Origin: a virus
IMG/VR virus record: IMGVR_UViG_3300017987_000202
Location: 1-36,581 of that record
Direction: 5' to 3' (one strand)
Length of the DNA: 36,581 nt
The notes under the pieces: model-generated
The model's database searches: none
The model's input: only the letters and a program-made list of their open reading frames with translations
What the model was told of the DNA's origin: nothing
Part shown: positions 6,144 through 36,475 of the stretch, piece by piece
Numbering within the stretch: the stretch's first letter is position 1
How the letters are laid out: each line of letters opens with the position of its first letter
Position numbers and translations under genes: made by a program

Positions 6144-8105
6144 ATGCTGAGAGAATTTTTAATAAAAAGCGAACCTGTCGAAGATGAAGAAATTTTTCAT
6201 CTTACTTATATGAAGCCCGAAGAAGTCAGCGTTGTGGACGCAGCTGCCAATAAAAGAAAGTTGCTTGTCATCAAATCGCAGGAAAAAGTTTTCAAGGCCG
6301 AGGTGCCGGATACTGGGGCGACATCAGAAGAAAAGAGAGATGCACAGAAACAGCGTTCGGCTACTTTCGACATTGAAGCACTTGAAGGCAAGGGCGAGAA
6401 TTTGACGTATCCAAAGGGCGATCCGACGGACCTTGGATTATATGGTGATCCGGTCAATCTCAAATATCCGTTGGCTTATGCAGGTGAATCAGATCCTGAT
6501 TTGGCAAGAGCCAATAATGCAAGAGCACGATTCAAACAGGCAGCGGATACGTATGAACAGACTAGCAGTAAAAGGGTTATTCATACACGGATAGTCAGGG
6601 CACAGCTTTCTGCTGGTGCAAGCCCTTCGTATAATCCGGACGATGAGCTGGATAAGCTTTTGGCAAGCGATATAAAAGACAAGCTGACCAAGGAAGTTGA
6701 TGGCGATGCGGACGAGCTGATGGGCGTTGGTAAGCCACAGATAGGGAGAGCACCTGACGGTGATCCGGGAACGTGGGATATTCAGTCTCTGCTATTTTCT
6801 AAAGATGAGTTTTCACTTAGCGAAGCCAAGACATGGCTCACTGAGCACGACTCTTATAAGAACTATGGCATGGAAGAGACGGATGAATACTACCGGTTCA
6901 GACAGTACGACCCGGAACATTTTTCTACTTGCAGAATGGTTGATATGACTACTGGAATAAAGGCTGTGTACTGCAAGATTAAACAGAAAGAAAAATCTTC
7001 AAAACAGGATGCCAAGGTCAGTGAGACTTCATCTGGTACGAGAGCAGAACAGGTTAGCGACGCAAGAGCCGGTCAGCGCGAAAGATCAGGCATTTACGAG
7101 ATAGAAGTTCTGGAAGGCAAAGGTGAAGACATTCATCTGTTGTTGCAACAGGGCGAGAATGATGATGAGTACGCGGATCCGGTTAACAGATTATTCCGGC
7201 TGTCATGGTATGATGGCAATGCGGATCCGAGTCAGGTAGCCAGCGCCGTTCAGGAATTTCAATCTTCGGTCGGACTTTACGAACAGAAAACCAGCAAGAC
7301 GGTCATCATGGGAAGGATTATTCGGGCAGCATTTCAGGCGATGTTATATCCGAGATTTGAGTCGGATCATCCCTTGTTCGAATACATACCGGAAGACCTG
7401 AAGGCAATGGTTGTTCATGAAAAAGCCGAGAACAAGGATGAAGACAAACAGGACCAGCCGGAAGGCGATGATGCGGGCGCAAGCGATATGGATACAGGAC
7501 TCAAGTCGGTCCTGAGTGCTGCGGATAGCGGAATAAAAAGTCTTTTATCACTGGCCGAAGGCATTCGGTCAGGCGAGCAGACGGATGCCAGTGCAGCGAA
7601 ACAGAAACTTCTGGATGTAGCCAATGCATTGAATAGTGCAGGAGGCAAGGCTAAGAATGCAGATGCAGATAATGACGAGCCGAATGAGTCGGCGAGTCAG
7701 GATAAGCCGAAAGAAAAAAATTCTGGCCTTACATCGCAGATAGCGAGTTTGAATTTAGACATAGCAGCAGCCAGATTGGGAAAAAGGAAACCTGTCAACA
7801 ATGATAAGCCGAAGCCTGTTGACAAAGAGGGCAGTGGCAATGGTGGCTCAACATCAGTGAAGGATTCAGGTAAAGGTACTTCGGCCAAGCCTGTAAATAA
7901 GAATACTTCGAAAGAGAGCGAGCTGCAGCGTGAGGTAGGCGAGCTGAGAAAACAAGTCATCAGACTCAAGAAACAGGTTCTTGCTCCGGCGGGTATAACG
8001 GATTACCTGTCGAATAAAAACACAGTCGAAGATGATAACGCATGGGATGGCGAGTATGATCTTTCGGCGAGTGTGAAAAAGCAAAAAGAAGCGGGAACTC
8101 TGTAG
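6144..8105 (+). CDS. Multidomain capsid-assembly protein with duplicated DUF6582-like domain
   Basis: The 653 residues form a mosaic. Residues 27-44 (EEVSVVDAAANKRKLLVIK) look like the C-terminal strand of XkdF proteases. Residues 71-158 and 312-402 are two copies of one domain: 'RSATFDIEALEGKGE' against 'RSGIYEIEVLEGKGE', then YGDPVNLKYPLAY against YADPVNRLFRLSW, then RIVRA against RIIRA. This resembles DUF6582. Between them, 209-278 holds a phage domain with AKTWLTEH and YRFRQYDPEHF. After a charged region comes a coiled coil (590-612) and the terminal tag WDGEYDLSASVKKQKEAG (634-651), shared with the acidic protein at 5047. Placement between protease and major capsid gene argues for a scaffold or internal head role. 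Confidence 0.65.
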   Translation: MLREFLIKSEPVEDEEIFHLTYMKPEEVSVVDAAANKRKLLVIKSQEKVFKAEVPDTGATSEEKRDAQKQRSATFDIEALEGKGENLTYPKGDPTDLGLYGDPVNLKYPLAYAGESDPDLARANNARARFKQAADTYEQTSSKRVIHTRIVRAQLSAGASPSYNPDDELDKLLASDIKDKLTKEVDGDADELMGVGKPQIGRAPDGDPGTWDIQSLLFSKDEFSLSEAKTWLTEHDSYKNYGMEETDEYYRFRQYDPEHFSTCRMVDMTTGIKAVYCKIKQKEKSSKQDAKVSETSSGTRAEQVSDARAGQRERSGIYEIEVLEGKGEDIHLLLQQGENDDEYADPVNRLFRLSWYDGNADPSQVASAVQEFQSSVGLYEQKTSKTVIMGRIIRAAFQAMLYPRFESDHPLFEYIPEDLKAMVVHEKAENKDEDKQDQPEGDDAGASDMDTGLKSVLSAADSGIKSLLSLAEGIRSGEQTDASAAKQKLLDVANALNSAGGKAKNADADNDEPNESASQDKPKEKNSGLTSQIASLNLDIAAARLGKRKPVNNDKPKPVDKEGSGNGGSTSVKDSGKGTSAKPVNKNTSKESELQREVGELRKQVIRLKKQVLAPAGITDYLSNKNTVEDDNAWDGEYDLSASVKKQKEAGTL

Positions 8106-10929: not shown

Positions 10930-12189
10930 ATGAAACCTTCACGAATTCCAAAGGACAGAAATTATCTGACATCCTTGGTAGAAAATTGCATGTCGAGAAC
11001 CGCCAAGGTGGAGGCCCGGATCGAGAATGCCTTGGCTCAGACCGCTACGGTGGTAGTGACGGACACGGACGCAGATGCTTTGGCTACTGCAATTGCAGGA
11101 GCTTCGGACGGTGATGTGATAGAGGTTCAGACGAATGCGGCTTATAATCCGGTTGTACTTCCGGCAGATAAGACGCTGATTATCAGGGCCGGTCAGGGCT
11201 ATGGACCAAGATTTACCGGATCGAGATGCATACAGATTGCAGACGGTGCGGAGTGCCACTTGGTATCAGGATTTTCATTCGAGAATTACACAACGCCAAA
11301 TCCAAATTACAACGGCGCGGCGATAGACTTCGAGACGCGGAATTCGAAGATCACGGACGTGGTCTTTCATAACATGAGTTTCGGACAGGTAACTGCTGGC
11401 TCTGCAGTCATGCTTTCCTATCACTGGTCAGAGGGTGGTGATAATTATGCAGCACCGCCGCAGCTCAATGAGCTGAGTGATACGGTGTCTTTCGTGGATT
11501 GTCACTTTTGCGAGTCAGGGGCCGAGGGCATAGAGGGCGGTTGTCTTTCACTGAGGGCGATTGCGCATCCTCTTATTCTGAGATGTCAGATAAACGGCGA
11601 GGAGAAAAACAGTCGCGGCATACAGCTGCAGAACTGTACTGATTTATTGATTCGAGATTGTGCAGCTCGCGGTTTCGGAGGAGGCAACGGCGAGGGCATT
11701 AAAATTGATTCCATTGGCAGTCCAGTTGCAGTGAGGGAAAGTGGACTCGTTTTTAACTGCATTTGTTCAGAATGCGTAGAAGGAATCGACATTGACGATG
11801 ATGCGGACGTAGTTGTGCTGGACAATCTTTGCTTCGGCAATACGGACGAGGGAATCAGCATTGACGATTCGGCCAAGTGTCTTTGTGTTGGAAACGTGTG
11901 CTTCGATAATGGAGTTGGAATACTGGCAGAGGCAGGATCAGTTACAGAGATGCAGTATAATTCGTGCTTCGGAAATACAACGGATTATTCTATCTTAAAC
12001 GGGTACGCTTTGCCTTCGTCCAATGTGACAAACGCAAACAATGCTTTCAGAAATACTGTTGCAAGAGGAATTCCGTACACGGTCGAAGATGCGGCTGACT
12101 GGGCGGTATCGAGTCCAGTTACGGTTGCGCAGGCTCTGGACAGAATTGCAGATGCAGTTGCCGGACTGCTGGCGGCTCCAATACCGTAG
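10930..12189 (+). CDS. Parallel beta-helix protein, probable head fibre (2)
   Basis: The 419-residue protein begins with a helical segment (residues 1-40) that could be an attachment region. A beta-helix entry follows (ALATAIAGASDGDVIEVQ, 57-74), then many PbH1-type rungs: SGFSFENYT, ITDVVFHNMSFG, VSFVDCHFCE, PLILRCQING, TDLLIRDCAARGF, LVFNCICSECVEGIDI, VVVLDNLCFGNTDEGISI, CLCVGNVCFDNGVGI. Cysteines recur at the same rung position. It ends in a short helical tail with LDRIADAVAGLL. It is unlike its neighbour in detail, so the two may form different fibres or one composite. Enzymatic activity cannot be excluded, but no active site was recognised. Confidence 0.7.
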   Translation: MKPSRIPKDRNYLTSLVENCMSRTAKVEARIENALAQTATVVVTDTDADALATAIAGASDGDVIEVQTNAAYNPVVLPADKTLIIRAGQGYGPRFTGSRCIQIADGAECHLVSGFSFENYTTPNPNYNGAAIDFETRNSKITDVVFHNMSFGQVTAGSAVMLSYHWSEGGDNYAAPPQLNELSDTVSFVDCHFCESGAEGIEGGCLSLRAIAHPLILRCQINGEEKNSRGIQLQNCTDLLIRDCAARGFGGGNGEGIKIDSIGSPVAVRESGLVFNCICSECVEGIDIDDDADVVVLDNLCFGNTDEGISIDDSAKCLCVGNVCFDNGVGILAEAGSVTEMQYNSCFGNTTDYSILNGYALPSSNVTNANNAFRNTVARGIPYTVEDAADWAVSSPVTVAQALDRIADAVAGLLAAPIP

Positions 12190-18112: not shown

Positions 18113-20314
18113 ATGGAACTCCTATCTGCAAAAGTAGTAATAAGAGAAGAAGCCCCTAAGATCAGATCTGCTCCGAGTTTACCGACGGCGGTACTTGGAA
18201 TTGTAGGTGTAACGGAACGTGGTCCACTGGATCAGACACTTCTGGTTACATCATGGGGAGAGTACGTATCTCAGTACGGTAATTACATTACGGACAGCGA
18301 TGTTCCGTTGGCAGTGCATTCTTTCTTCATTAATGATGGAAAGTATCTCTACATGAGAAGGATATGTCACTTTACGGACGTGGACAGTCCATCATCGTTT
18401 ACCGCGGTCAAGGCATCGAGAATGCTTCAGACAGATGGTGGCGGTGCAACAGCCGGGGCGGTTGTCTCAAGCAACTCGGCACCGTTCGAGCTGGCTGATG
18501 GAGATACGCTGGACATCACAACGGACTTGGGCGGACCTACTACGGCAACATTTAACGGCACGGCTCCAAGCGTAACGGATACGACTTCTTATCCAGTGGG
18601 ACCCGGAACGGGTGTTCTACAGGTCAAGGTAGATCAGGGCAGTACTCAGAGCATAACGTTTGCTGGAACTGAGACTACGGCGGATGACATTGCGGCAACA
18701 ATCAATGCACAGATTGAAGGCGCGAGAGCAATAGTCGTAGCTGGTCCACAGGTGAAGATCGAATCTGACAAAAAAGGTACTGGCGGATATGTCGAAATCG
18801 TGGCTAATCCTTCGGCGAATCCCTTGCTTACTTTTTCGACTTCGGAAGTGCAGGGCGGAGGAAATGTTGCGGACATCGAAGCGGTAACAGGGGCCGAAGT
18901 CAAGAGCGTGGTTGAAGGTGCGGTATCAGGAGTTGAGGTATCCGGCGATACTTACGTAACCATAGCCCGCAGCGATACCGGGTCAACCAAGTACGTGACG
19001 GTTGCGGCCTCGAGCACGGCAGACGATGAGATGGGATTCGACAATCTGCAGCACGACGGCACGGACGATTCTCCGCAAGATACTTTGAATGTCGAAGGCA
19101 AGACGGAAGGGACTTATGCTCACAACGTAAAGACGAAGGTTGAAGACGCCAGCAATGGTGACAGCGACTATTTCAATTTTTACGTTCTGGAAGATGACAT
19201 AATCACGGAACGGTTTCCCGATGTGACAATGGAAGATGAAGCGGATCCGCGATATGTCGAGACGATAGTCAACGATGAAGATAACGGTTCAATGCTGATT
19301 CAGGTTGAGGATCAGGAACTGGCGGGAACAAGGCGACCGGCAAATCAGACATCGAGCGCATTGGCTGGCGGAGATGATGGACTGACCAGCTTGGCCGATG
19401 TGGATTACATAGGCTCTGAAGCTGGAAAGACCGGCCTGTATGCTTTCGATATTATATCGGACATAACCTTGATAGCGGTTCCGGGCATAGCTACTTCAGG
19501 CGTGCAGAATGCAATGATTACATATTGCGATACACACAGAAGCGGAATGATGCACGCATGTCTGGATCCACCGGCGAGCCAGACTGCATTGCAGATGAAG
19601 ACCTATGTTGAGACAACGGCATCGCTGAAGAACCTTTCAGAGCATGGATTCATATGGTGGCCGAGAATCAAGGTGGTCAATCCTAATGAGACCATTTACG
19701 GCAATGAGAAATATGTCGTAATTCCACCGGCGGCATCATTGGCCGGTGTCATGGCTCGGAATGATTCACGAGGGCCCGGCGGAATTGCTGAAGCTCCAGC
19801 GGGAATTGAGTACGGATTGATCAAGGACTGCGTAGGTCTGGAGACGGACGAAGCTCTGGATCCGAAAAAGCGGGACTTGGTTTATCCGGCGTTGATTAAT
19901 CCGATAACCAAGATTGGAAGTTCGCCTTATCATTCAGACGGCAGCAGAACACTGAAGGAGAACGGCAACTGGCCGAGCATCGGACAGAGACGGCTGGTTA
20001 CTTACATCGAGAGGGTAGCGAGAATTGCTGTACTGTATGCCAAGCACAGGAATATCACGAGAAGACTCAAGAACAGTGTTGAAGGAACGATGGAACAGTT
20101 CCTTCTTGAGCTGACCAGCTTGGGAGTTTTTGCGTCAACAAAGCCAAGAGAGGCATTCTGGATTGACGTATCAGACGAGTTGAATCCACCGAGCGTGGCA
20201 TTTGCAAGACAGGTCAGAGTAAGAATTGGTCTGGCGACTGCTTATCCGGGTGAGTTCATCATCATATCATTCTCACAGGATTTAAGGGCACTTGAGCAGG
20301 CGCTTCTTTTCTAA
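18113..20314 (+). CDS. Contractile tail sheath protein
   Basis: The N-terminus (REEAPKIRSAPSLPTAVLGI, VGVTERGPLD, VTSWGEYVSQYG) and the C-terminus (WPSIGQRRLVTYIERVARI, RRLKNSVEGTMEQFL, then RVRIGLATAYPGEFIII) are typical of tail sheaths. The inner part SGVQNAMITYCDTHRSGM and AGVMARNDSRGPG match the sheath core. With 733 residues it is much longer than simple sheaths of about 400-500. The extra length is mainly a beta-rich insert at about residues 105-330 (ADGDTLDITTDLGG, TTADDIAATINAQIEGA, VKIESDKKGTGG), which probably faces outward. AATACGGAGGTATAAT includes the ribosome binding site. Confidence 0.92.
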   Translation: MELLSAKVVIREEAPKIRSAPSLPTAVLGIVGVTERGPLDQTLLVTSWGEYVSQYGNYITDSDVPLAVHSFFINDGKYLYMRRICHFTDVDSPSSFTAVKASRMLQTDGGGATAGAVVSSNSAPFELADGDTLDITTDLGGPTTATFNGTAPSVTDTTSYPVGPGTGVLQVKVDQGSTQSITFAGTETTADDIAATINAQIEGARAIVVAGPQVKIESDKKGTGGYVEIVANPSANPLLTFSTSEVQGGGNVADIEAVTGAEVKSVVEGAVSGVEVSGDTYVTIARSDTGSTKYVTVAASSTADDEMGFDNLQHDGTDDSPQDTLNVEGKTEGTYAHNVKTKVEDASNGDSDYFNFYVLEDDIITERFPDVTMEDEADPRYVETIVNDEDNGSMLIQVEDQELAGTRRPANQTSSALAGGDDGLTSLADVDYIGSEAGKTGLYAFDIISDITLIAVPGIATSGVQNAMITYCDTHRSGMMHACLDPPASQTALQMKTYVETTASLKNLSEHGFIWWPRIKVVNPNETIYGNEKYVVIPPAASLAGVMARNDSRGPGGIAEAPAGIEYGLIKDCVGLETDEALDPKKRDLVYPALINPITKIGSSPYHSDGSRTLKENGNWPSIGQRRLVTYIERVARIAVLYAKHRNITRRLKNSVEGTMEQFLLELTSLGVFASTKPREAFWIDVSDELNPPSVAFARQVRVRIGLATAYPGEFIIISFSQDLRALEQALLF

Positions 20315-20326
20315 GGAGGAATAAAA

Positions 20327-20788
20327 ATGGCCAATGAAAGAAAAGACAGAGATAAAGGCTTTCTATTTCTGGTAGAAATCGGAGGCTTTAACAAGGCGGC
20401 TTTCCGGACGTGTTCACCTATCCGGCGGGATACGGAGATTATCGAAAACTGGGAAGGCGGCGAAATGATTGCGGACAAGGATCCGGGTCGGACCATGTTT
20501 GATCCGATAACACTGGAACGGGCCATGACGGATAACGAAGAACTCCGGCAATGGTGCGAGGACGTGGTTAATTTCACAGAGGGCAATGCTGGTGTTCCAT
20601 TGAACGAGCTGAAAAAGACTGTGGACATCATACAGCTGGACAGGACAAGAACTCCTATCCGGAAGTACAGACTCCATGAATGCTGGCCAAATACGGATCA
20701 GATAGGACCGTGGGACAACACTACCAGCGAAAATGTTTTGGAGTCTGTGACTCTTACATTTAAGTATTACACAAGAGAGCCGGTATAA
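20327..20788 (+). CDS. Tail tube protein
   Basis: This 153-residue protein has the gp19/FII-like tube pattern: FLFLVEIGGFNKAAFRTCS near the start, ADKDPGRTMFDPITLERAMT at 48-67, LRQWCEDVV, then a closing LESVTLTFKYYTREPV. It forms the inner tube that is driven out when the sheath contracts. It follows the sheath by 12 bases with an AAGGAGGAATAAAA site, the usual sheath-tube order. A hairpin overlaps the stop codon. Confidence 0.9.
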   Translation: MANERKDRDKGFLFLVEIGGFNKAAFRTCSPIRRDTEIIENWEGGEMIADKDPGRTMFDPITLERAMTDNEELRQWCEDVVNFTEGNAGVPLNELKKTVDIIQLDRTRTPIRKYRLHECWPNTDQIGPWDNTTSENVLESVTLTFKYYTREPV

Positions 20789-20830: not shown

Positions 20831-21757
20831 ATGACAGAACAAGACCATACCGTAAAAAATCAGGCAAGCGAGAGTCAGACAGAACCTTTACAGGATACGA
20901 GCGTCCAGAAATCGGAAGATACTGGACCGGAAAAGTCCAATGTTAAGCCTTTTCCCAAGCCCGGCAAAATGAAAAAGATCGTTTGTCCGTCTGGATTGAC
21001 TGTGACTTTAAGAAAAATGCAGACACATGAGTACGATTATTTCGATGGTGCTACGGAAAGGGATGTTCCTACCATAACAACCAGCATATTGAATTCATGC
21101 ACGGAACAGGTTCACAGTCCGGTTCCAGCGTTTTATTCATTATCTAAGGAAGGAAATCTCGACTGGATGAAGGTTCTTACCGGTGACAGACTATATGCTC
21201 TGGTGCAGCTCAGAATTCTTTCATTAGGAAGCAAGTACGAGTTTACGGTGCATTGTGAAAGGCCGTATTGTCCACGGATGATTCATTGGAAGGTAGATTT
21301 GGACGAAGACATTCCTGTTCTGGACCTGCCGGATGAATCCCTTGAAGCATTATCGGCAAATAAGCCTTTATCTTTCAAGCTTCCGGACAGCGGTAATGTA
21401 GTCAAGTTTGTTCTTCCTACAGCCGAAATTGAAGAACGGTTGATGAAGATGGAGGATAACCAGTTTCAGACAAAGATAACGGCACAGCGTTTGCTTCACA
21501 GGATTGTAGACATCGAAGGCGTTGAGCCTAATGACCGGTCTACGTTCTTGGACAAGATGGACATTGATGAGCTGGCGGAATTGCAGATAGCCATGGATGA
21601 TGCCGATTGCGGAATAGATACGAACATCATAGTGCAGTGTGGTGGGTGTAAGGCGTCACAAGAGGTAAGTCTCCCTTTCGGACTAACTTTCTGGCTACCG
21701 AGTACCTTAGAACGAAATCGACGAAGGCGGCGGCGCTCGAGATCTTCAAAGGAATAG
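20831..21757 (+). CDS. Tail assembly chaperone / gp26-like protein, short (0-frame) product
   Basis: The 308-residue product starts with a Ser/Gln/Thr-rich leader, then MKKIVCPSGLTVTLRKMQTH. CERPYC near 142 and CGGC near 270 look like a zinc ribbon formed by distant Cys pairs, and TAQRLLHRIVDIEGV and MDIDELAELQIAMDDADCG lie between. This layout recalls T4 gp26-like baseplate/tail assembly proteins that sit between tube and tape measure in contractile phages. After VSLPF the 0 frame ends in an unlikely Arg run (RNRRRRRRSRSS), while the -1 frame opens into sensible protein. That fits the G/GT type of tail chaperone, where a fraction of ribosomes shifts. Confidence 0.7.
   Translation: MTEQDHTVKNQASESQTEPLQDTSVQKSEDTGPEKSNVKPFPKPGKMKKIVCPSGLTVTLRKMQTHEYDYFDGATERDVPTITTSILNSCTEQVHSPVPAFYSLSKEGNLDWMKVLTGDRLYALVQLRILSLGSKYEFTVHCERPYCPRMIHWKVDLDEDIPVLDLPDESLEALSANKPLSFKLPDSGNVVKFVLPTAEIEERLMKMEDNQFQTKITAQRLLHRIVDIEGVEPNDRSTFLDKMDIDELAELQIAMDDADCGIDTNIIVQCGGCKASQEVSLPFGLTFWLPSTLERNRRRRRRSRSSKE
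21673..21679 (+). promoter_or_regulatory. Candidate -1 ribosomal frameshift site CCCTTTC
   Basis: In the chaperone frame the bases read C CCT TTC, a canonical X_XXY_YYZ heptamer. The -1 frame is open from 21652 (a TAA ends it at 21649-21651) to the stop at 21982-21984, and it contains no credible start before 21778. Shifting here joins residues 1-283 to 101 more, giving 384 residues. Confidence 0.65.
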
Positions 21758-21984
21758 ATCATGAGTATCTGCATACCTTGGTCATTAATGCATGTCGGAT
21801 GGAATTGGGATGCGGGATAGCTGGAATAACGATGGAGCAGGCGTGGAGGATGACCATTGAAGACTTGGAGGACATCGCCAGAGCTTCGGTAGAAACAAGA
21901 AAAGCGGGACTCGGTGTCATAAAGGCGTTGGCCGAAATCGTAGCAAAGGCAGGTGGAATGAAGCTGAGATGGTCAAGAAAATGA
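21679..21984 (+). CDS. Frameshifted C-terminal extension of the tail assembly chaperone
   Basis: Read in the -1 frame after CCCTTTC, this encodes RTNFLATEYLRTKSTKAAAL, then EIFKGIDHEYLHTLVINACR, MELGCGIAGITMEQAWRMT and IEDLEDIARASVETRKAGL. It is a helical, evenly composed protein segment, unlike the Arg-rich end of the 0 frame. An independent start is poor: the only codons available are TTG 21778 without a Shine-Dalgarno and internal ATGs. The segment ends eight bases before the tape measure gene. Tail chaperone extensions of this size bind the tape measure during tail assembly in other phages. A sequencing frameshift would give the same picture and is the main alternative. Confidence 0.65.
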   Translation, partial: RTNFLATEYLRTKSTKAAALEIFKGIDHEYLHTLVINACRMELGCGIAGITMEQAWRMTIEDLEDIARASVETRKAGLGVIKALAEIVAKAGGMKLRWSRK

Positions 21985-21991
21985 GATAGCT

Positions 21992-24448
21992 ATGGCACTC
22001 AATCAATCCATGGGAATCGGTTTCGTCATTACAGGCAAAGACCTCGCTTCCCGACAAATCAACAAAGTCAAAGGTAATCTTAGAGGGTTAGGTAAGCAGT
22101 CCGAAGAGACTCAGCAGACTATGGAGTCAGCAATGAAGATGACTGCTGCTGGCATTGGATTGCTTACTGTAGGACTGGTCGGTTTGTCTGCGGAGATGAA
22201 GCTGGCTGGAGTAGCTGGTGAATTCGAACACGTAATGGCCGGGGTGGGTGCTACGGCACGGGCTTCCGAAGCAGAAATGAAAATGCTGAAACAGGCGGCG
22301 ATTGAGGCTGGTATAGCAACGCAATTTTCGCCATTGGAAGCTGGACGTGGATTAAAGGTTCTGGCAGCGCAAGGTCTGGCGGCTTCGGATCAGGTTACAG
22401 CATTGATTCCTGTACTGGACTTGGCTGCAGCTGGAGAAATATCCGTGGCGGAATCTGCGGAAGCCGCGGTCGGTGCCGTCAAAGCCTTCGGAATGGAAAT
22501 GACGGATTTGACCATGACGGCGGATAAAATGATGCGGGCTACGACTATTTCAAATTTACGAGCATCTGAGTTTTCAATTACGATGGGCCGGGCTGGTGCA
22601 ATGGCAAAGACATTCGGTCAGTCTCTGGATGATACGCTGATTGGCCTTGGTGCCTTAAGAAATATGAACGTTCAGGCAAGCGTAGCAACAACGTCATACA
22701 ATGAGGCGGTCAGGCGTCTGGCTGTTGACCAGGCAGGACAGCGTGAGGCACAGCGATTGGGCGTTCAGATATTCGATAAACAGACCGGCAAGATGCGGTC
22801 GGCTCTGGATATTATGCTGGACGTAGCTGAAGCTACAAAAGACTTGGGCGACAAGGAAAAAAATCGTGCATTGAATCAGATGTTCGGCGTGCGAGGCATT
22901 GCGGCGTTTAATGCTATTGCGGAAATAAATATCAAGACCATGAGAGACGGCAAGGAAGTAACCCTAAAGGGTGCCGAAGCTTTGAAAGAATATCGCAAAC
23001 AGATGAGCAGTGCTGGTGGAGCATCCGAAAAGTTCAGAGAGAAACTTCTTTCGACATACGAAGGACAGAAGACACTGTTGAAAGGTTCCATTGAGACGCT
23101 GGCTATTACGCTTGGAGAGCCTCTGGCCAATCTGTTCAAGCCCGGAGTAACGTTCATTATTGAGAAAGTTAATGAGCTTATTAAGGCATTTCAGGATATG
23201 GATCCAGAAACAAAAAAATGGGTTGCCGGGATTGCTGTAGCAATTCCTGTAATGATTACGGTTGGCGGTGCGATACTTACAATAGTAGGAGCGTTTGCTT
23301 TGCTGAAGCTAGCTATTGTTGCAGCTGGAATTACTCTTGCAGGAATAGGCATGGGGTTTGTATGGGTAACGGCCATTATTGCCGGACTGGTTGCAGCCGG
23401 GGCACTTCTTTATAAAGCGTATTCGGAAAATCTTGGTGGGCTTAAAGATTCCGTAGGTGACTTAGGTAAATCATTCAAAGGACTATTTGGTGCATTGAAA
23501 AATATCGGCAAGGCTTTCGTAGAAAATGAAAAAATAATGGCGGCATTAGGTTATGCTTTCACAGGTCTAGCGTGGATTGTGGGAAAAGTATTTTCGTTTA
23601 TAGCGACTACCATTGAGACAGCGGTTGAAGTAATAAGAAATATTTTTGAAGGATTGGGGTTATTGCTGGAAGGTGACTTCAAAGGATTCGGTAAGAAAAT
23701 GGTCCGGGCGCTTTTGTCAGCATTTACCGGAGTGGGCAAAGCTCTTGCGGAAGTGTTTGGTGTTGAGATGAAAGATATTCACAGTGAAGTAGATCTCACA
23801 ATTACTTGGATTACCGAGAAATCACTTAAAGCACTTGTGGCATGGAAAAAATTTAGACTTGAATTCCTAGTCAGCAAGGAAGGCAAGGCAGCACAGCAAC
23901 TTAGATCTGATATTGAAAAACTGGAAAAAGAATTGTCCACAATGAAAACGGCTGCAGAATTGATGGCTGAACAGGAAAAAGGTCCTACAGGAAAAAGGCA
24001 GTTTGCAGGTGGTCCGGGTGTTTCGGAAATGCCAACTATAATGGATGACTTTATTAAGGAGATGGAATCTGCACAGCGCGAACAGCAAAAAATGAGCGTA
24101 CCGCGAAAGAGAATTATTCACGAGACCGAAGAGTATGCAGATTACATCGAGCGCGGACCTGAGATGTCATTCGAAAGGCGTCCTGTATCTGAAGAAATTA
24201 TGCAGGAGGCTTTAGGTCAGACGGCTGTTCCTGAAGAATACAGGGAAACAGAAAGACAGAATGTTAAACAGGCAATGCAGGAATCCATGGAAGCGACTGT
24301 TGAGCAATTAAGTACTCAATTAACGGATAAATTTTTGAATGGCATCAGCGGGATGAGTGTTACCATGGATCAGTATGAAGTTGGTCGCATTGTTACACAT
24401 GGAGAGCGTGCTCGGCAGGATAGAGAATTAGGGGCCGGAGAAGAATAA
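21992..24448 (+). CDS. Tape measure protein (TP901 type)
   Basis: The 818-residue protein sets tail length and later enters the host envelope. The TP901 core is visible at about 50-330: AGVAGEFEHVMAGVGATARA, IEAGIATQFSPLEAGRGL, ATTISNLRASEFSITMGRAG, LRNMNVQASVATTSYNEAVR, then LNQMFGVRGIAAFNAI. Hydrophobic, probably membrane-active helices follow at 408-475 (VAIPVMITVGGAILTIVGAF and AIIAGLVAAGALLYKAY) and again near 520-570. The C-terminal 200 residues are charged and coiled-coil-like (LRSDIEKLEKELSTMK). Its length predicts a tail of moderate size, roughly 120 nm by the usual 1.5 angstrom per residue rule. Confidence 0.92.
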   Translation: MALNQSMGIGFVITGKDLASRQINKVKGNLRGLGKQSEETQQTMESAMKMTAAGIGLLTVGLVGLSAEMKLAGVAGEFEHVMAGVGATARASEAEMKMLKQAAIEAGIATQFSPLEAGRGLKVLAAQGLAASDQVTALIPVLDLAAAGEISVAESAEAAVGAVKAFGMEMTDLTMTADKMMRATTISNLRASEFSITMGRAGAMAKTFGQSLDDTLIGLGALRNMNVQASVATTSYNEAVRRLAVDQAGQREAQRLGVQIFDKQTGKMRSALDIMLDVAEATKDLGDKEKNRALNQMFGVRGIAAFNAIAEINIKTMRDGKEVTLKGAEALKEYRKQMSSAGGASEKFREKLLSTYEGQKTLLKGSIETLAITLGEPLANLFKPGVTFIIEKVNELIKAFQDMDPETKKWVAGIAVAIPVMITVGGAILTIVGAFALLKLAIVAAGITLAGIGMGFVWVTAIIAGLVAAGALLYKAYSENLGGLKDSVGDLGKSFKGLFGALKNIGKAFVENEKIMAALGYAFTGLAWIVGKVFSFIATTIETAVEVIRNIFEGLGLLLEGDFKGFGKKMVRALLSAFTGVGKALAEVFGVEMKDIHSEVDLTITWITEKSLKALVAWKKFRLEFLVSKEGKAAQQLRSDIEKLEKELSTMKTAAELMAEQEKGPTGKRQFAGGPGVSEMPTIMDDFIKEMESAQREQQKMSVPRKRIIHETEEYADYIERGPEMSFERRPVSEEIMQEALGQTAVPEEYRETERQNVKQAMQESMEATVEQLSTQLTDKFLNGISGMSVTMDQYEVGRIVTHGERARQDRELGAGEE

Positions 24449-27924: not shown

Positions 27925-28362
27925 ATGGAAGGATTTACAGGTAAGGATGAGTTAACTACGGGCCGCGGCCTGTTGTTACCTTTAAGGTGGGAGGCGAATG
28001 ACTTCGCAAATGGCAGTGGAGAGCCGTTGGTGCATAGCTGTTTATTAATTGCAGTGGGCACCATAGGAGATTCTCCATTTACGGACGGCGAAATACCTTG
28101 GGATACTGAGGTTGGAACTATTGTCATGGCGATGAAGCACAGAAATATGACAATCGGAAGGGCGGACAGGGCCGAGGAAGAAATATCCAGAGGGGTCCAT
28201 ACTACTTATCCGGTAGTTATAATCCGTGAAGTAGACGTTAAAATAAATCAGGGTGAAAGAAAGACGGCATTCCGAGTCAGTGCGCGGTATGATATGCGAA
28301 GTAAATTTGTTGAGGCGGATCAGGTCATTCATTCTGGTTTGGAATTTAATACGGAGCTGTAA
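27925..28362 (+). CDS. Baseplate wedge protein (gp25 / gpW-like)
   Basis: The 145-residue protein carries the gp25 fold: LVHSCLLIAVGTIGDSPF then DGEIPWDTEVGTIVMAMKHR, with the conserved GE.pw...G sequence at about 53-62, TYPVVIIREVDVKINQGERK and a final strand FRVSARYDMRS. In T4 and P2 these subunits form part of the wedge and nucleate the sheath. The usual order spike, gp25, gpJ is kept. AAGGTGAGAC gives the start. Confidence 0.85.
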   Translation: MEGFTGKDELTTGRGLLLPLRWEANDFANGSGEPLVHSCLLIAVGTIGDSPFTDGEIPWDTEVGTIVMAMKHRNMTIGRADRAEEEISRGVHTTYPVVIIREVDVKINQGERKTAFRVSARYDMRSKFVEADQVIHSGLEFNTEL

Positions 28363-28363
28363 T

Positions 28364-29968
28364 ATGACAGATATAATTTCTCAACAATTTGGCAGCAATC
28401 AGGATTACACGTCAAACGACTTCGAGACTTTACTGGCCAGATTGCAATCATTGACCGGTTCGGTATTCCCCGGCTGGACAGAGGCTACAAGGGTTGGTTT
28501 TGCTAATGTCCTAAGAGCGCAGAATGCATTTGTCGGTGATGTCCTTTGTTATTTGATGAACAATAAAAAGAAGGAGTGTCACTGGGGAACGCTTTCACAA
28601 AGACACAGCGCAATTAATATGGGTAAGTTAATCAGCTATCGACTTGGAGGGGCTACTCCAGCACAGACGGAAGTTGTTTTCAGAGCAGAGAGAACCATAC
28701 TTCCCGGCAAGGTGGCGGGATCCGTTTACATTCCCGAAGGAGTTATTTGCAGGACTTCAGGAACGAATATTATCAGACAGCGTTCATTGTCTGCAGTGAC
28801 AATAGCTGCAGGATCAGCAGAGAGTTCTATTGTTATGGTTGAAAATAGCACTGAAGAAACAGAATCTTTTCCAGCGAACGGTAAAAAATTTCAGGAACTT
28901 GTATTGGGATATACTCCATTTGTGGAGGGTGAGTACGACATATATGGAGATAGCTCGCATCTGGCAAAGATAGACATGAGTGATTCGATTGGTCCGTTCG
29001 AGACAGTGGATTCGTTTCTGGATAGCAGGGCCAGCGATGCACATGCCGTGGTTTTGGTGGATGAAAATAATAAGGCTACTGTCAGAATAGGCGACGGACA
29101 AAACGGACGACTGGCAAATGGAACAATAACAGTAGCGTATAAATATGGCGGTGGTGAAGCTGGTCGTGTGGAAGCGGAACAATTGACCGTAGTTGAAAAC
29201 GGGCCAACGGTTGACAGCAATGGCAATCCTGTTGTGGTCACTTGTTTTAATGAGAACGCCAGTATTGAAGGTACGGGAACTGACAGAGAGACGGTAGCGT
29301 ATGCAAAGCAGACAGCTCCAGCATCATCAAGAGTAGGGCAATATACTATTGCAAAAGAAGATTATGTTTTTAATGCCAAGCGTGTAGCAGGAGTGGCCAG
29401 AGCGTTATGCCTGACAAATAACGAAGAAGCGGCAATTCCAAATGGGCGGGTCAGAGTTTATATTGTACCAGAGGGCGGTGGTCAGCCTGCTTCAGCATTA
29501 ATCAGCAATGTGGAAACCATGTTGCAGGTTACGCGACGGCATACGGTTACGGCAATCCCGGAAGTAATGTCGGTGACTCCATATCTTAATATAGATGTTT
29601 ATGCGGTCGTTTATCTGCGGCCTATTCCGGCTGGATATACGAGGTCTGAATATTTGGCAGTGGTCAGAGATCAAATCGAAACGGCACTGGAAGATTTCTT
29701 TATTCCTTCACTTAGTGATGGAACGGAAAATCCTAATGTAGATTTCGGTGCTAATTATAAAGATATCAATGATAATATTATTGGTGAAATAGCATGGAGT
29801 GATATTCTAAATGAAGTCAGGGATGCAGGATACGTAAGGAAGGTTGGTTCTGGTGCGGATGAATTTTTGCTTAATGGAGAAAGAGATGATGTGTTTTTAT
29901 TTCCGTATCAGTTCCCGGCGTTCGGTGAGATAACACTGATAGACGGAGACAGCGGTGAGGAATTTTAG
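28364..29968 (+). CDS. Baseplate wedge protein (gpJ-like)
   Basis: ATG 28364, one base after the gp25 stop, gives 534 residues; the longer frame begins inside gp25. It reads as a gpJ/Mu gp47-like wedge: DYTSNDFETLLARLQSL near the start, QRHSAINMGKLISYRLGG at 83-100, YIPEGVICRTSG, VRIGDGQNGRLANGTITVAY, RVGQYTIAKEDYVFNAKRVA, and VTPYLNIDVYAVVYLRPIPA. At the end, GEIAWSDILNEVRDAGYVRK is the usual C-terminal signature. It builds the iris ring of the baseplate. Longer than P2 gpJ (about 300) because of a middle beta domain. Confidence 0.88.
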   Translation: MTDIISQQFGSNQDYTSNDFETLLARLQSLTGSVFPGWTEATRVGFANVLRAQNAFVGDVLCYLMNNKKKECHWGTLSQRHSAINMGKLISYRLGGATPAQTEVVFRAERTILPGKVAGSVYIPEGVICRTSGTNIIRQRSLSAVTIAAGSAESSIVMVENSTEETESFPANGKKFQELVLGYTPFVEGEYDIYGDSSHLAKIDMSDSIGPFETVDSFLDSRASDAHAVVLVDENNKATVRIGDGQNGRLANGTITVAYKYGGGEAGRVEAEQLTVVENGPTVDSNGNPVVVTCFNENASIEGTGTDRETVAYAKQTAPASSRVGQYTIAKEDYVFNAKRVAGVARALCLTNNEEAAIPNGRVRVYIVPEGGGQPASALISNVETMLQVTRRHTVTAIPEVMSVTPYLNIDVYAVVYLRPIPAGYTRSEYLAVVRDQIETALEDFFIPSLSDGTENPNVDFGANYKDINDNIIGEIAWSDILNEVRDAGYVRKVGSGADEFLLNGERDDVFLFPYQFPAFGEITLIDGDSGEEF

Positions 29969-32900
29969 ATGACACTGCCAGTAAGAAAATATTGGTGGCG
30001 ACCAAGTGTGCTGGCTCCCTATGCAGGACAGGGCCTTAATATCTCCGGCAACAATTATGAGGACTTCGAAAAGTTCATGGGATGGTTGCTGGTAAGAAAG
30101 ATATTTGTTTCCGGAGTACCAAGAGAATATGAGCGCGAGCTTTCTATAGACGCCAATGGTGCGCGGATTATTTTGCCTGTCAATACAGACTGGGCAGAAA
30201 CGAATCTGGATGATGATAATGCGTTGATGGGTGATAGCAGATATTGGGTATGTGTTTATCCATATTCCTTGAGAGGTTTTATTAATCCTAGAATGGACCC
30301 GGATATACTGGGCTTTGCAGAAATACACTGGCGGGTTCCCAATGTAAGAAAATATAATAATAATTATGGAATGCATACTGGCCTTGGAATAACACTGGGG
30401 AAAAGCCATGCGGCAGTAGCACATACAAAAAAGCAAAGTCTTATTGTTCCACCTGAAAGTGGTGGTGGCTGGAAAATAAAATCTGATTACGCTGGTTCAT
30501 CATGGAACAATCCGGCATTGGAATCGGATGTTGTGCTAGACGAAATAGCAGAAGGAAAATTCCGAGCAGACCATGTGAAGAGAGATGACTCTACCGGATT
30601 GATGACCTTGAAGTTTTGGAATCCTATTACAAGAGAATATCAATTAATGTTTTCGGATAATTCCGTTTCTTGGGATATGTATGCAGATTTTGTTCCGTTT
30701 ATGATCGGCGTTCCTAATTCAGAAAGCGGTGATGATCTTGAGCATACTCTGGTTCAGTTTCAGGGCTATCCTTATGATCCTTTTATAGCACAGGTAATGC
30801 CGGTTGCAGATTACTTGTCTAATCTGGATATTATTTTTGATGGCAAAAATGCTGCAGCTTCTGGACATGGCGGTTATGAGCTCAGGGAAGATCTTGGCTG
30901 GGCAATAAGATGTACAGCGTATACGAGAGGTGGCGCATCAAGTGGGTTGGCTCATATTATTACAGACTCTATGGCACAGGGATATGATCATCCGTGGATG
31001 CCAAGCGGAGCATTTACTATTTTATTTGATATAAATATTGATGATTGGGATCCGGGCGAGCGGAGATATATTGCTTATTGTACAGGCTCAAATACATATC
31101 CGGTTTATTGGACACTGAGTGCGGATGATGATCTCCGGGCTGAAATAACTACTGGTTCAGGTTCTATAATAATGGATTTTACAGCGGCTCTCTTTTGGAA
31201 CGGAGAGCCGCATCAGGTCGGAATAAGTTTCGATGGAGTGAGCAGATGGCGATTGTTATTTGACGGACAGTATGTTTCAGAAAAAATTGATTCTACAGCA
31301 GTCATGCAGAATGAGACTTTGCTTCTTGGTGCATGGTTTGGAAATCGTGGTGTTGAAGCATGGCGTGGTGATGTTCAGATATGGGAACAGGAGCTTAATA
31401 ATGATCAGCTGGTCGAGGCTTATAGCGAATTACTGAAATATAGAATTAAAAATTATTCTTTCGAAATAGCGAAAGATGGCGCTGCAATTGCTGGCGAGGC
31501 TGAAGACTGGGATTGTACTCCTTCGGAGCTTTATGCGTTTGCAGAATTCGAACATCATGATCAATTTAATTCTGAGCGCGAAGATTATGAGACGGACTGG
31601 AACAATAATGATGGACATATAGACCAGTGGGATAATGATGCAAGTGCACCGGCATTATTTTCTTTAGGCAAAGAGAAAATTGCCGCAGAGACTTTTGAAC
31701 GTCCGGGATGGGAAGTGCTCGGTTCGGACTATCAGAAAAACGGCTGGCCGTGGCAATGGCCGAGCAACAGTAAGCAAGCTGTATTTTCAGGTGTGGCGTT
31801 TTATGGCATTGCGGATATTACGGTCGAATCGTTTGAGTTCGGATGGGATTCAAATGAAAATTATATTTACAGTCCACAGGACATATGGGTACTTGAGCCA
31901 CAGCTTCCATTGATAATTAATAAATGGAAAAACAGCAGGGTGGCTTTTGCAATTTATAATTTCGGACTGGCCGAATGGCGTGGAGCTGACATTGAAATAG
32001 CAGAGGGTACTTATAATACGGCAACGGATTTGGCTTCTGCATTGCAAAGCGCATTCGATGCAATCGGTCTGGCTTCTGAGTTTGGACTTACTTTCGGAAC
32101 GCATCCGGACAGCCCGGCTACGAAATATACGATTAAGACAGATAACGTGGTAAGCATAGCCGCTGTAGGCGTAGGTCCTGATATTAGCTCCGGCGAACAG
32201 CCGGATGGTCGTGCGGACTTAGGAATGCCAGCCAGAGAGACTTCAATAATTCTAGGTGATGAAAATGTAGAAGGCTATCGGGTTAATCAGCTGGATGTAA
32301 TTATGAATGGTGATCTGGCCGGATTTAACTGGCTGGGAGGCAATGGTGGTTTTTCGAATCGAGCACAATTTGACGGACAGAGTGCTGAAAAATTCGAAAC
32401 CGGATGGAACAATGACGAGTACACAGACAAGATGGTGGGTAATATTATTTATGCTTTGAATCCCTATGATCAGATAGGCATTACGGGAGATTATACATCA
32501 AGATATAATATTCCTGGACTTGAGTGCGTGATAGCAGACGGTCAGGAAAATGATGGAAATTATACAGTAATATCAGCCGTGTTTTTAGGTGGTATAACTA
32601 TAGTTACATTTAATGAACGTATAGAGGTGGTTATTTCTGGATGGGGTTCGGTTTATCCTAATTACAAGAGGGCAGAATTCAATGCAACAGAAGCTTATTT
32701 AATAGGTAATTCATGGCCGATCCCGGATGAGTTTGAAATATTCGGAAGAGACTTAACGGCATTATTTGATACGGATTACGAGTTTTCTGTTACAGGTCAT
32801 CCTAATGCTGGCAAGTATACAGTAAAAGCACCCGGAGCATATATGAGTGGATCGAATATGAGAATTCCGGTTAATGAAAATTTTAATCACATGGCAGCTC

Positions 32901-32983
32901 AAGGTCATGTTTCGGCTCCGAGAAGAGTAGAAAATTTCGAAGATCCTTACGGACACTTATGGCCAACAGAGGTTATTGATTAG
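29969..32983 (+). CDS. Large LamG-containing tail/baseplate structural protein
   Basis: The 1004-residue protein starts immediately after gpJ. Residues about 350-486 form a laminin-G/ConA-like jelly roll (FTILFDINIDDWDPGER, VGISFDGVSRWRLLFDGQ, LLLGAWFGNRG, DVQIWEQELNNDQLVEAY), a common carbohydrate- or surface-binding fold. After it, a short unit recurs: DYETDW near 538, TFERPGW 573, SFEFGW 620, KFETGW 807 and NFEDPYG 988. Each precedes or follows an Asn/Asp-rich turn. N-terminal 300 residues are unrecognised and may dock to the wedge. It is probably a peripheral baseplate or side-fibre protein that contacts the host. Confidence 0.6.
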   Translation: MTLPVRKYWWRPSVLAPYAGQGLNISGNNYEDFEKFMGWLLVRKIFVSGVPREYERELSIDANGARIILPVNTDWAETNLDDDNALMGDSRYWVCVYPYSLRGFINPRMDPDILGFAEIHWRVPNVRKYNNNYGMHTGLGITLGKSHAAVAHTKKQSLIVPPESGGGWKIKSDYAGSSWNNPALESDVVLDEIAEGKFRADHVKRDDSTGLMTLKFWNPITREYQLMFSDNSVSWDMYADFVPFMIGVPNSESGDDLEHTLVQFQGYPYDPFIAQVMPVADYLSNLDIIFDGKNAAASGHGGYELREDLGWAIRCTAYTRGGASSGLAHIITDSMAQGYDHPWMPSGAFTILFDINIDDWDPGERRYIAYCTGSNTYPVYWTLSADDDLRAEITTGSGSIIMDFTAALFWNGEPHQVGISFDGVSRWRLLFDGQYVSEKIDSTAVMQNETLLLGAWFGNRGVEAWRGDVQIWEQELNNDQLVEAYSELLKYRIKNYSFEIAKDGAAIAGEAEDWDCTPSELYAFAEFEHHDQFNSEREDYETDWNNNDGHIDQWDNDASAPALFSLGKEKIAAETFERPGWEVLGSDYQKNGWPWQWPSNSKQAVFSGVAFYGIADITVESFEFGWDSNENYIYSPQDIWVLEPQLPLIINKWKNSRVAFAIYNFGLAEWRGADIEIAEGTYNTATDLASALQSAFDAIGLASEFGLTFGTHPDSPATKYTIKTDNVVSIAAVGVGPDISSGEQPDGRADLGMPARETSIILGDENVEGYRVNQLDVIMNGDLAGFNWLGGNGGFSNRAQFDGQSAEKFETGWNNDEYTDKMVGNIIYALNPYDQIGITGDYTSRYNIPGLECVIADGQENDGNYTVISAVFLGGITIVTFNERIEVVISGWGSVYPNYKRAEFNATEAYLIGNSWPIPDEFEIFGRDLTALFDTDYEFSVTGHPNAGKYTVKAPGAYMSGSNMRIPVNENFNHMAAQGHVSAPRRVENFEDPYGHLWPTEVID

Positions 32984-34978: not shown

Positions 34979-36475
34979 ATGTTTGTCTGGTGGCTGGTAA
35001 TAAATTATTTAACTGCGGCGACTGTAAGGTTTCCGGCAATATTGCTGGATGTTATTTTTCCGATTCGTTTGGACGAAGACAAAGATCATGTTCTGGCGAT
35101 TAATAGAAGTCCTGAACCAGACGAGACAGACATTCCTAGAGAGGGACCTGTAAGATTACAGATAGCATCTCTTGGCAAGGCGGATGTAGATATTGAAAAT
35201 ACGCTTGTTTATATAAACAGCGTTCTGGCATTTGATGGCAGCTCATTTTCTGTAGACAGAAATTTGTGTTTTCAATCGGGATGGAACAGGGACGGTTGGT
35301 CGTGGGTCGGTGCGGCTGATGAGATAGGTATTCAGTCATCAGACCCGGACATGCTTTATGAAATAGCAATTTATCCGGATGAAGACTTTGAGTCTGAAGA
35401 AGAAATTTCTGTCCGGGTTGTTTCGCAGACAGTTCATTCATCGGCAACAATGGATGAGACTTATTCATTCACTATCGAAGATTATTCAGCTCCAGAAATT
35501 CTTTTATTAACACCGGTGGACGAATTTACACTGGATGTAGAATTCAATGAGCCGGTCAGGATGGAGGGAGACGGCGATTTATCAGACGCGCTTACGCTGG
35601 GCAATTACAGCATAGAGCGACAGAATGAAGATCCTTTTCCGGCTGTACATCTGGAAGTGGTTGCGGTCGAAGCCGTGGATGATTCCACTGTCCGGCTGAC
35701 GTTTCAGTGGGAATCTACTCCGGTGCAGATTTATGAGCTTACAGTCGAAAATGTTGAGGACATAAAAGGTAATGCAATTGATCCGGATAATAATACGGCA
35801 ACATGGTCCGGATATGAATGGCCAGTTCCAGAGGGACGCGAGTTCAGCATTTACTATAACATGCTTCCGGGCATTGCCAGACAGCTTGATGAGAACTTGG
35901 ACCTGCGAAGGTTAACGGCATGCTTCGAAGAAATTCTTTATTTGCTTTTATGGTGGATAGATAAATTCACATGGCAGGTTGACATTGATCGGGCTACGGA
36001 ATCTCAGTTGGATGAGTTACTTCTGGATATGGGCAATCCGTTTAACTTCGAGATGGATGTCAATCAGAAGCGAAAATTGCTTCGAGTGCTTTGGGAGATA
36101 TATCAATCCAAAGGAATCGACCGAGCAATGGAGAATGTAATTTATTTATTTTTAGGACTGGAGGTCAGGGTCCGGGCGTTTGTAGATTTTCTGGACGAAG
36201 AAGGACAGAACTATATGTGGCGGCTAGGTCATTCAAGACTAGGAACGGATACGGCCCTGTGGCCTACGAGCGAATGGAGTCAGCTGGCATTTAATGTTTA
36301 CAGCGATGTAATTCTTACAGATGACCAGCGCGGCAAGATTGAACAGATAATAGAAATCATGCGTCCGGCGGAAAGTCATTTTGCCTTTCTTATAGAACCG
36401 GATACAATACCAGAAACAGATCACTGGCAGCTTGGTCGCAGCCGTCTTGGTGTTGAGACTTTCCTGCATGAGTGA
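34979..36475 (+). CDS. gpI-like tail protein with Ig-like domains
   Basis: Residues about 292-400 match P2 gpI: YYNMLPGIARQLDENLDLR, LLLWWIDKF, LDELLLDMGNPF and VLWEIYQSKGIDRAMENVIY. In P2 this protein joins fibres to the baseplate. Before it lie an unassigned 40-170 beta domain (TLVYINSVLAFDG, MLYEIAIYPDEDF, YSFTIEDYSAPEI) and an SbsA-like Ig domain at about 172-278 (LDVEFNEPVRM, DSTVRLTFQW, DIKGNAIDPDNN). The end has two related units, WRLGHSRLGTDTALW and WQLGRSRLGVETFL. The hydrophobic start (FVWWLVINYL) and the absence of a clear Shine-Dalgarno leave the start uncertain. At 498 residues it is far longer than P2 gpI (176). Confidence 0.8.
   Translation: MFVWWLVINYLTAATVRFPAILLDVIFPIRLDEDKDHVLAINRSPEPDETDIPREGPVRLQIASLGKADVDIENTLVYINSVLAFDGSSFSVDRNLCFQSGWNRDGWSWVGAADEIGIQSSDPDMLYEIAIYPDEDFESEEEISVRVVSQTVHSSATMDETYSFTIEDYSAPEILLLTPVDEFTLDVEFNEPVRMEGDGDLSDALTLGNYSIERQNEDPFPAVHLEVVAVEAVDDSTVRLTFQWESTPVQIYELTVENVEDIKGNAIDPDNNTATWSGYEWPVPEGREFSIYYNMLPGIARQLDENLDLRRLTACFEEILYLLLWWIDKFTWQVDIDRATESQLDELLLDMGNPFNFEMDVNQKRKLLRVLWEIYQSKGIDRAMENVIYLFLGLEVRVRAFVDFLDEEGQNYMWRLGHSRLGTDTALWPTSEWSQLAFNVYSDVILTDDQRGKIEQIIEIMRPAESHFAFLIEPDTIPETDHWQLGRSRLGVETFLHE

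Follow-up and report, generated by a model that had tools for sequence, protein, structure and literature searches.

The window, that is, the whole stretch of DNA analysed here, is a virus record of 36,581 bases (IMG/VR IMGVR_UViG_3300017987_000202). The features of its tail region with which this analysis is concerned are the following.

18113-20314, plus strand, tail sheath protein (phrog_15814, unnamed, E 2.4e-172; phrog_17610, tail sheath, E 1.7e-48; phrog_23, tail sheath, E 1.6e-34)
20327-20788, plus strand, tail tube protein, T4 gp19-like (PF06841, E 2.7e-24)
20831-21757, plus strand, short 0-frame form (TAC-N) of a T4 gp26-like chaperone, 308 aa, with two Cys pairs (PF12322, phrog_150)
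21662-21665, plus strand, candidate internal Shine-Dalgarno-like GAGG, 7 nt ahead of the heptamer, a putative stimulator
21673-21679, plus strand, slippery heptamer C CCT TTC, read from the sequence, which would re-pair as CCC TTT; the next -1 codon is CGG, 21679-21681
21679-21984 including the stop, plus strand, C-terminal extension of TAC-NC in the -1 frame, an open frame without a usable start that has counterparts in relatives and an AlphaFold2 (AF2) model
21992-24448, plus strand, tape measure protein, PhageMin_Tail (PF10145, E 4.3e-32; phrog_1533, E 2.5e-59)

The first-pass annotation had placed the gene between tube and tape measure, and the matches of both neighbours bear this out. The 0-frame protein itself matches PF12322 (T4_baseplate), which is the T4 gp26 family, with an E of 1.9e-11 and 44.5 bits against a cut-off of 24.5, and phrog_150, a 'baseplate hub' family, with an E of 5.5e-17; its Cys columns are invariant among 8 homologues. 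The AlphaFold2 model of the 308-residue protein reaches a pLDDT of 78.8, the N-terminal 43 residues being of low confidence, and a fold search pairs it with predicted hub proteins of the T4-like type (best E 2.7e-15). Foldseek with 2ob9, the HK97 tail assembly chaperone, and with 3fgx gives TMt values of 0.45 and 0.52 at non-significant E values of 5.6 and 5.9. A sequence search of solved structures returned no match and an NCBIfam search nothing relevant. Fusion to the downstream frame lengthens the phrog_150 match by only two residues, and the family profile ends near the slip point.

Codon phase puts C CCT TTC in the 0 frame of the ORF at 20831-21757, as had been proposed, with CTC at 21671-21673, CCT at 21674-21676 and TTC at 21677-21679 (local reading GTA AGT CTC CCT TTC GGA). 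The -1 frame is free of stops from 21652 until the stop at 21982-21984, and the +1 frame closes immediately. The earliest ATG of the -1 frame lies at 21799, and no convincing Shine-Dalgarno sequence is present at any -1 frame start in the window, including TTG 21778 and ATG 21799. The earlier description of an open -1 frame with no good start is correct, as is the stated size of the fusion, join(20831..21679,21679..21984), at 384 aa. Another part of that description we revise: the Arg-rich 0-frame end is not an artefact. GLTFWLPS, its first part, is similar to the aromatic stretch found after the zinc ribbon in relatives (GRDFF, GRAYWLPK, EFFHARF), and the Arg run is probably the result of overprinting by the -1 frame. 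CCCTTT occurs a single time on the entire plus strand of the window. In-frame sites of the form X_XXY_YYZ are common in its genes, with 38 in 11,835 codon pairs, so that one heptamer by itself says little; what lifts this heptamer beyond chance is its conservation in diverged relatives.

Relatives of the locus were found via the better-conserved sheath (L008, L009/L010, L017 and L020 to L023, later also L129/L130), and their hub proteins share only about 18-35% identity with that of the window. We find that the 0-frame gene of each relative stops soon after a slippery heptamer and that the -1 frame continues for 60-117 codons, the extension of L010 being truncated by the contig end. The slip sites with CCT read ATC CCT TTC in L008, CTC CCT TTC in L009/L010, CTC CCT TTG in L017, L129 and L130, and GAC CCT TTC in L022/L023; those with a run of T read GGT TTT TTC in L020 and GAT TTT TTC in L021. 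C CCT TT[C/G] thus stands at the ORF end in five diverged lineages, represented by the window, L008, L009, L017/L129 and L022, and a -1 extension always follows. The check on relatives that had been suggested along with the site therefore comes out in its favour, as a slippery heptamer is present in all of L008, L009/L010, L017/L129/L130 and L020-L023 and a single continuous frame in none of them. CCT is scarce as a Pro codon in the GC-rich genomes among these (1/48 in L009, 2/48 in L017 and 2/33 in L008). The chance of a preceding C together with CCT for Pro is 0.041 in the window, 0.022 in L008, 0.011 in L009, 0.024 in L017 and 0.044 in L022, and the product of these five per-genome chances, about 1e-8, serves as an illustration and not as a formal p-value, the site having been picked after inspection.

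The -1 frame of the relatives is under purifying selection. Between L017 and L129, 80 of the 124 substitutions upstream lie at the 0-frame wobble position, and beyond the 0-frame stop 33 of 54 lie at the -1 wobble position (p=2.7e-5), indicating that in this pair the -1 frame evolves as protein-coding sequence. Wobble selection was tested in relatives and not in the window because the search for a near but non-identical relative of the window yielded only identical copies. Genome-contig scans with the sheath alignment and with the L008 sheath gave no prophage relatives. A perfect palindrome, GGGAGGTCGACCTCCC, at L017 6987-7002 and L129 4686-4701, ends within the slip heptamer and is absent from the other lineages.

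A similar arrangement, with T TTT TTC as the slip site, is found in T4-like phages. The heptamer lies exactly three codons ahead of the gp26 stop in 80/80 T4-like cyanophage loci (L042-L121), which are the best 80 of at least 598, are 72-96% identical to the reference, Synechococcus phage Bellamy, and are mutually related. The -1 frame after the site is a short ORF that the Bellamy annotation lists as a gene of its own under 'baseplate hub assembly' (gp51, 56 aa; L038 2675-2869). Beyond the gp26 stop, 154 of 260 changes among the cyanophages fall at the -1 wobble position (p=1e-17). T TTT TTC followed by a -1 extension is also present in Vibrio KVP40, Agrobacterium Atu_ph07, Aeromonas Ah1, Cronobacter S13 and Stenotrophomonas Mendera.

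Phage T6 (L122 1159-2585) encodes the long form in a gene of its own, gp51, a paralogue of gp26 (blastp E 7e-5 in a two-sequence comparison). The C-terminus of gp51, fused in frame, is matched by hhalign to the -1 extension of the cyanophage type (E 7.9e-5). The window extension corresponds by position to this gp51-like domain, which T4/T6 carry within a distinct full-length duplicate gene. The label 'baseplate wedge tail fiber connector' that record AP018814 gives to T6 gp26 is probably a misannotation.

The AF2 model of the window extension is helical, with a mean pLDDT of 69. Compared by hhalign with the other -1 extensions, it gives an E of 0.012 at a probability of 3.5% and is strongly diverged; its homology to the gp51-like domain is accordingly suggested mainly by position, the sequence being too diverged to reveal it alone. 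The extensions of the -1 clade align with cyanophage-type gp51 at an E of 0.021. A fold search of the window extension returned nothing significant, a tape measure chaperone of phage Moogle appearing at E 1.9. DUF6760, which we take to be a small protein from the context of contractile injection systems, was considered as a source of the extension and set aside, its matches being sub-threshold (E 0.08 for L009 9471-9740 and 0.17 for the +1 extension of L015), with no match in control genomes; the similarity could tie the extension to a small protein of such systems.

Given the conserved heptamer and the -1 extension in diverged relatives, the interpretation offered by the first-pass annotation, a programmed -1 frameshift in the tail assembly chaperone, is supported, and the frameshift in the window is very probably real and functional. 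We put at roughly 0.92 the probability, judged from comparative sequence evidence, that slippage at CCCTTTC makes a two-form tail assembly chaperone of the G/GT type, whose minor, 384-residue form would carry a gp51-like C-terminus. The majority of ribosomes would read 20831-21757 and produce the 308-residue, G-like TAC-N. On a minority, the tRNAs reading CCU (P site) and UUC (A site) would slip back by one base in tandem (CCU to CCC, UUC to UUU), and these ribosomes would pass the 0-frame stop and add 101 residues, giving the 384-residue, GT-like TAC-NC. The fusion junction is predicted to be LPF-RTNF, reading ...SLPFRTNFLATEYLR. The lambda scheme assigns tape measure binding to G and the recruitment of tube subunits to T (PMC5009743); by analogy the part common to both forms would cover the tape measure protein, and tube subunits would be brought in by the C-terminal domain of the minor form.

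The GAGG ahead of the heptamer may act as a stimulator of slippage. A Shine-Dalgarno-like tetramer lies 5-17 nt upstream of the slip in 6/8 -1 relatives (P=0.0016 against a phase-matched background, L017 and L129 not being independent) and upstream of the slip in 80/80 cyanophages, against a background of 9%. An internal Shine-Dalgarno sequence stimulates -1 shifting in E. coli dnaX, at a somewhat longer spacing. Because conserved Glu/Gly codons could contribute to the enrichment, it argues only weakly for a stimulator. Support for a downstream stimulatory RNA structure is lacking in the window (z +1.07) and weak elsewhere.

Could the two frames encode two separate proteins, the downstream ORF starting alone (TTG 21778 or ATG 21799) or by coupling, without any fusion? 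Cyanophage and KVP40 records do annotate a downstream ORF of its own, of 56 and 55 codons, in many cases with an ATG near the slip, and phrog_20255, a family of 63 positions and unknown function that matches the extensions of L008 and L009, looks like such a short ORF. However, the -1 frame starts of the window lack a Shine-Dalgarno sequence, L009 has no ATG ahead of the domain core, the cyanophage loci L097 and L110 are without the usual ATG near the slip, and in Ah1 and S13 the extension has neither an annotated ORF nor an early ATG. Moreover, the domain is fused in frame in T6 gp51, and independent initiation would leave the invariant heptamer unexplained. We consider two proteins improbable. 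Slippage of the transcribing polymerase in place of ribosomal frameshifting would likewise be expected to yield mixed products from one gene, yet CCCTTTC holds no run of more than three bases, and the heptamer keeps its codon phase, which is needed only for tandem tRNA slippage; this origin of the long form is less probable still.

The data are metagenomic and the site consists of short homopolymer runs, so that one base wrongly added or dropped at the C/T run might have split one continuous gene. Two further metagenome records, 3300017991_000663 and 3300029267_001213, separate from that of the window although perhaps not independent samples, are identical to it across the gene, the sole difference found being one base at 22364, outside the gene; this base-for-base agreement makes an indel unlikely. 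Against an error stands, too, the out-of-phase layout that recurs at the same motif in diverged relatives and at T TTT TTC in GenBank isolates. As for a non-coding -1 ORF that happens to follow a coincidental heptamer, in-frame heptamers are indeed not rare in the window genes, but conservation in five CCCTTT lineages and the wobble-position selection in relatives speak against coincidence. An indel and chance are, to our judgement, the least probable explanations of all, and both are close to negligible.

The programmed frameshift that we favour for the window is not the only form that recoding appears to take in this family. In Streptomyces phages BRock (L015 7903-8986), LuckySocke (L039 5870-6977), pSt2308 (L040 5903-7008) and GiJojo (L041 5945-7052) the extension lies in the +1 frame after CTG TTT C, and in a wobble test of two disjoint pairs 56 of 101 changes fall at its wobble position (p=4e-6). 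These phages appear to use +1 instead of -1, and the small downstream ORF that is annotated in them, absent in pSt2308, is probably part of the +1 fusion. The extension also appears to lie in +1 (or -2, which is indistinguishable) in SP-15, LIS04, GXN1, LR756508, immuto and Mel-JY01. In Bacillus SP-15 (L011 2974-3913), Listeria LIS04 (L012 2941-3900) and Streptococcus GXN1 (L013, 2932 onward) a gp51-like extension lies near a common CC CGA TT[C/T]; SP15_046 is probably the tail end of that of SP-15, and LIS04 has an unannotated gap of 230 nt there. The odds seem to us slightly in favour of a wider proposal: across T4-type contractile phages the gp26/gp51 two-isoform chaperone would be a recoding gene throughout its family, one whose slip sequence, and even direction, changed again and again (-1 at C CCU UUC/G or U UUU UUC, and apparently +1 at UUU C or CUU U in phages of Streptomyces, Bacillus, Listeria, Streptococcus and Flavobacterium) and whose T4/T6 branch lost recoding by gene duplication. 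If so, T4, the often-cited exception, would represent a derived state.

Chaperone genes of T4-like phages were reportedly identified by Vladimirov, Gautam and Davidson in 2022 (Virology 566:9-15), and the gp26/gp51-type genes treated here are probably the ones named there. The first-pass annotation knew of no described shift in gp26-like chaperones; this does not hold, as PMC12846349, with reference to Vladimirov et al. 2022, names poly-T sequences as known -1 signals in TAC-N genes of T4-like phages. In place of the shift, certain T4-like phages have a short gene together with a long fused one (PMC10885494). Chaperones of the gp26/gp51 type, both frameshifted and duplicated, are already on record for T4-like phages. 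What we did not find described, and what looks new, are the lineage of the window, the CCCTTT[C/G] slip sequence and what look like changes between -1 and +1 inside a single family; among the papers listed by a literature text search with frameshift terms, none paired CCCTTT or CCCUUU with phage tail genes.

The T4-like gp26/gp51 genes share with the window the short and long chaperone forms and the PF12322 family, and poly-T -1 signals are reported in some of these phages; T4/T6 have a duplicated long gene, gp51, and no shift, whereas the window has the CCCTTTC shift and a much diverged extension. The lambda G/GT pair is alike in its position upstream of the tape measure, its -1 direction and its minor, C-terminally extended product. 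Its slip site is G GGA AAG, different from that of the window, PF12322 has a zinc ribbon, and the likeness is one of layout. P2 E/E+E', also from a myophage, has a -1 shift into a short downstream frame without a ribosome binding site (PMC3931495); its slip site is T6G, not CCCTTTC, and here too the likeness is one of layout. Vandenendeviridae have a conserved -1 shift in the tail assembly chaperone (PMC12846349), and Vandenendeviridae/Andersonviridae such as phage Adele share the TAC-N/TAC-NC logic upstream of the tape measure and a conserved -1 site; the signal of the Adele type is GTTTTT, unlike CCCTTTC, and the comparison is one of layout.

Ordinary annotation misses the long form in the window, and in the GenBank entries examined the extension is either absent or given as an ORF of its own, 'hypothetical' or 'baseplate hub assembly'. 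Recognising the shift would give the correct long chaperone for the window lineage and for many T4-type phages. It would also tie contractile T4-type tails to the lambda G/GT scheme, a frameshift that a 2016 review describes as widely conserved with the exception of T4 (PMC5009743). The family permits direct comparison of how frameshift direction evolves and how a gene escapes recoding by duplication.

Elsewhere in the window, the large ORFs at 29969-32983, 6144-8105, 10930-12189 and 34979-36475 have no PHROG match at E 0.001. The GTG start listed for the baseplate wedge-like ORF at 28253-29968 makes it overlap the preceding ORF, 27925-28362, by 110 bases, and the true start probably lies further downstream.
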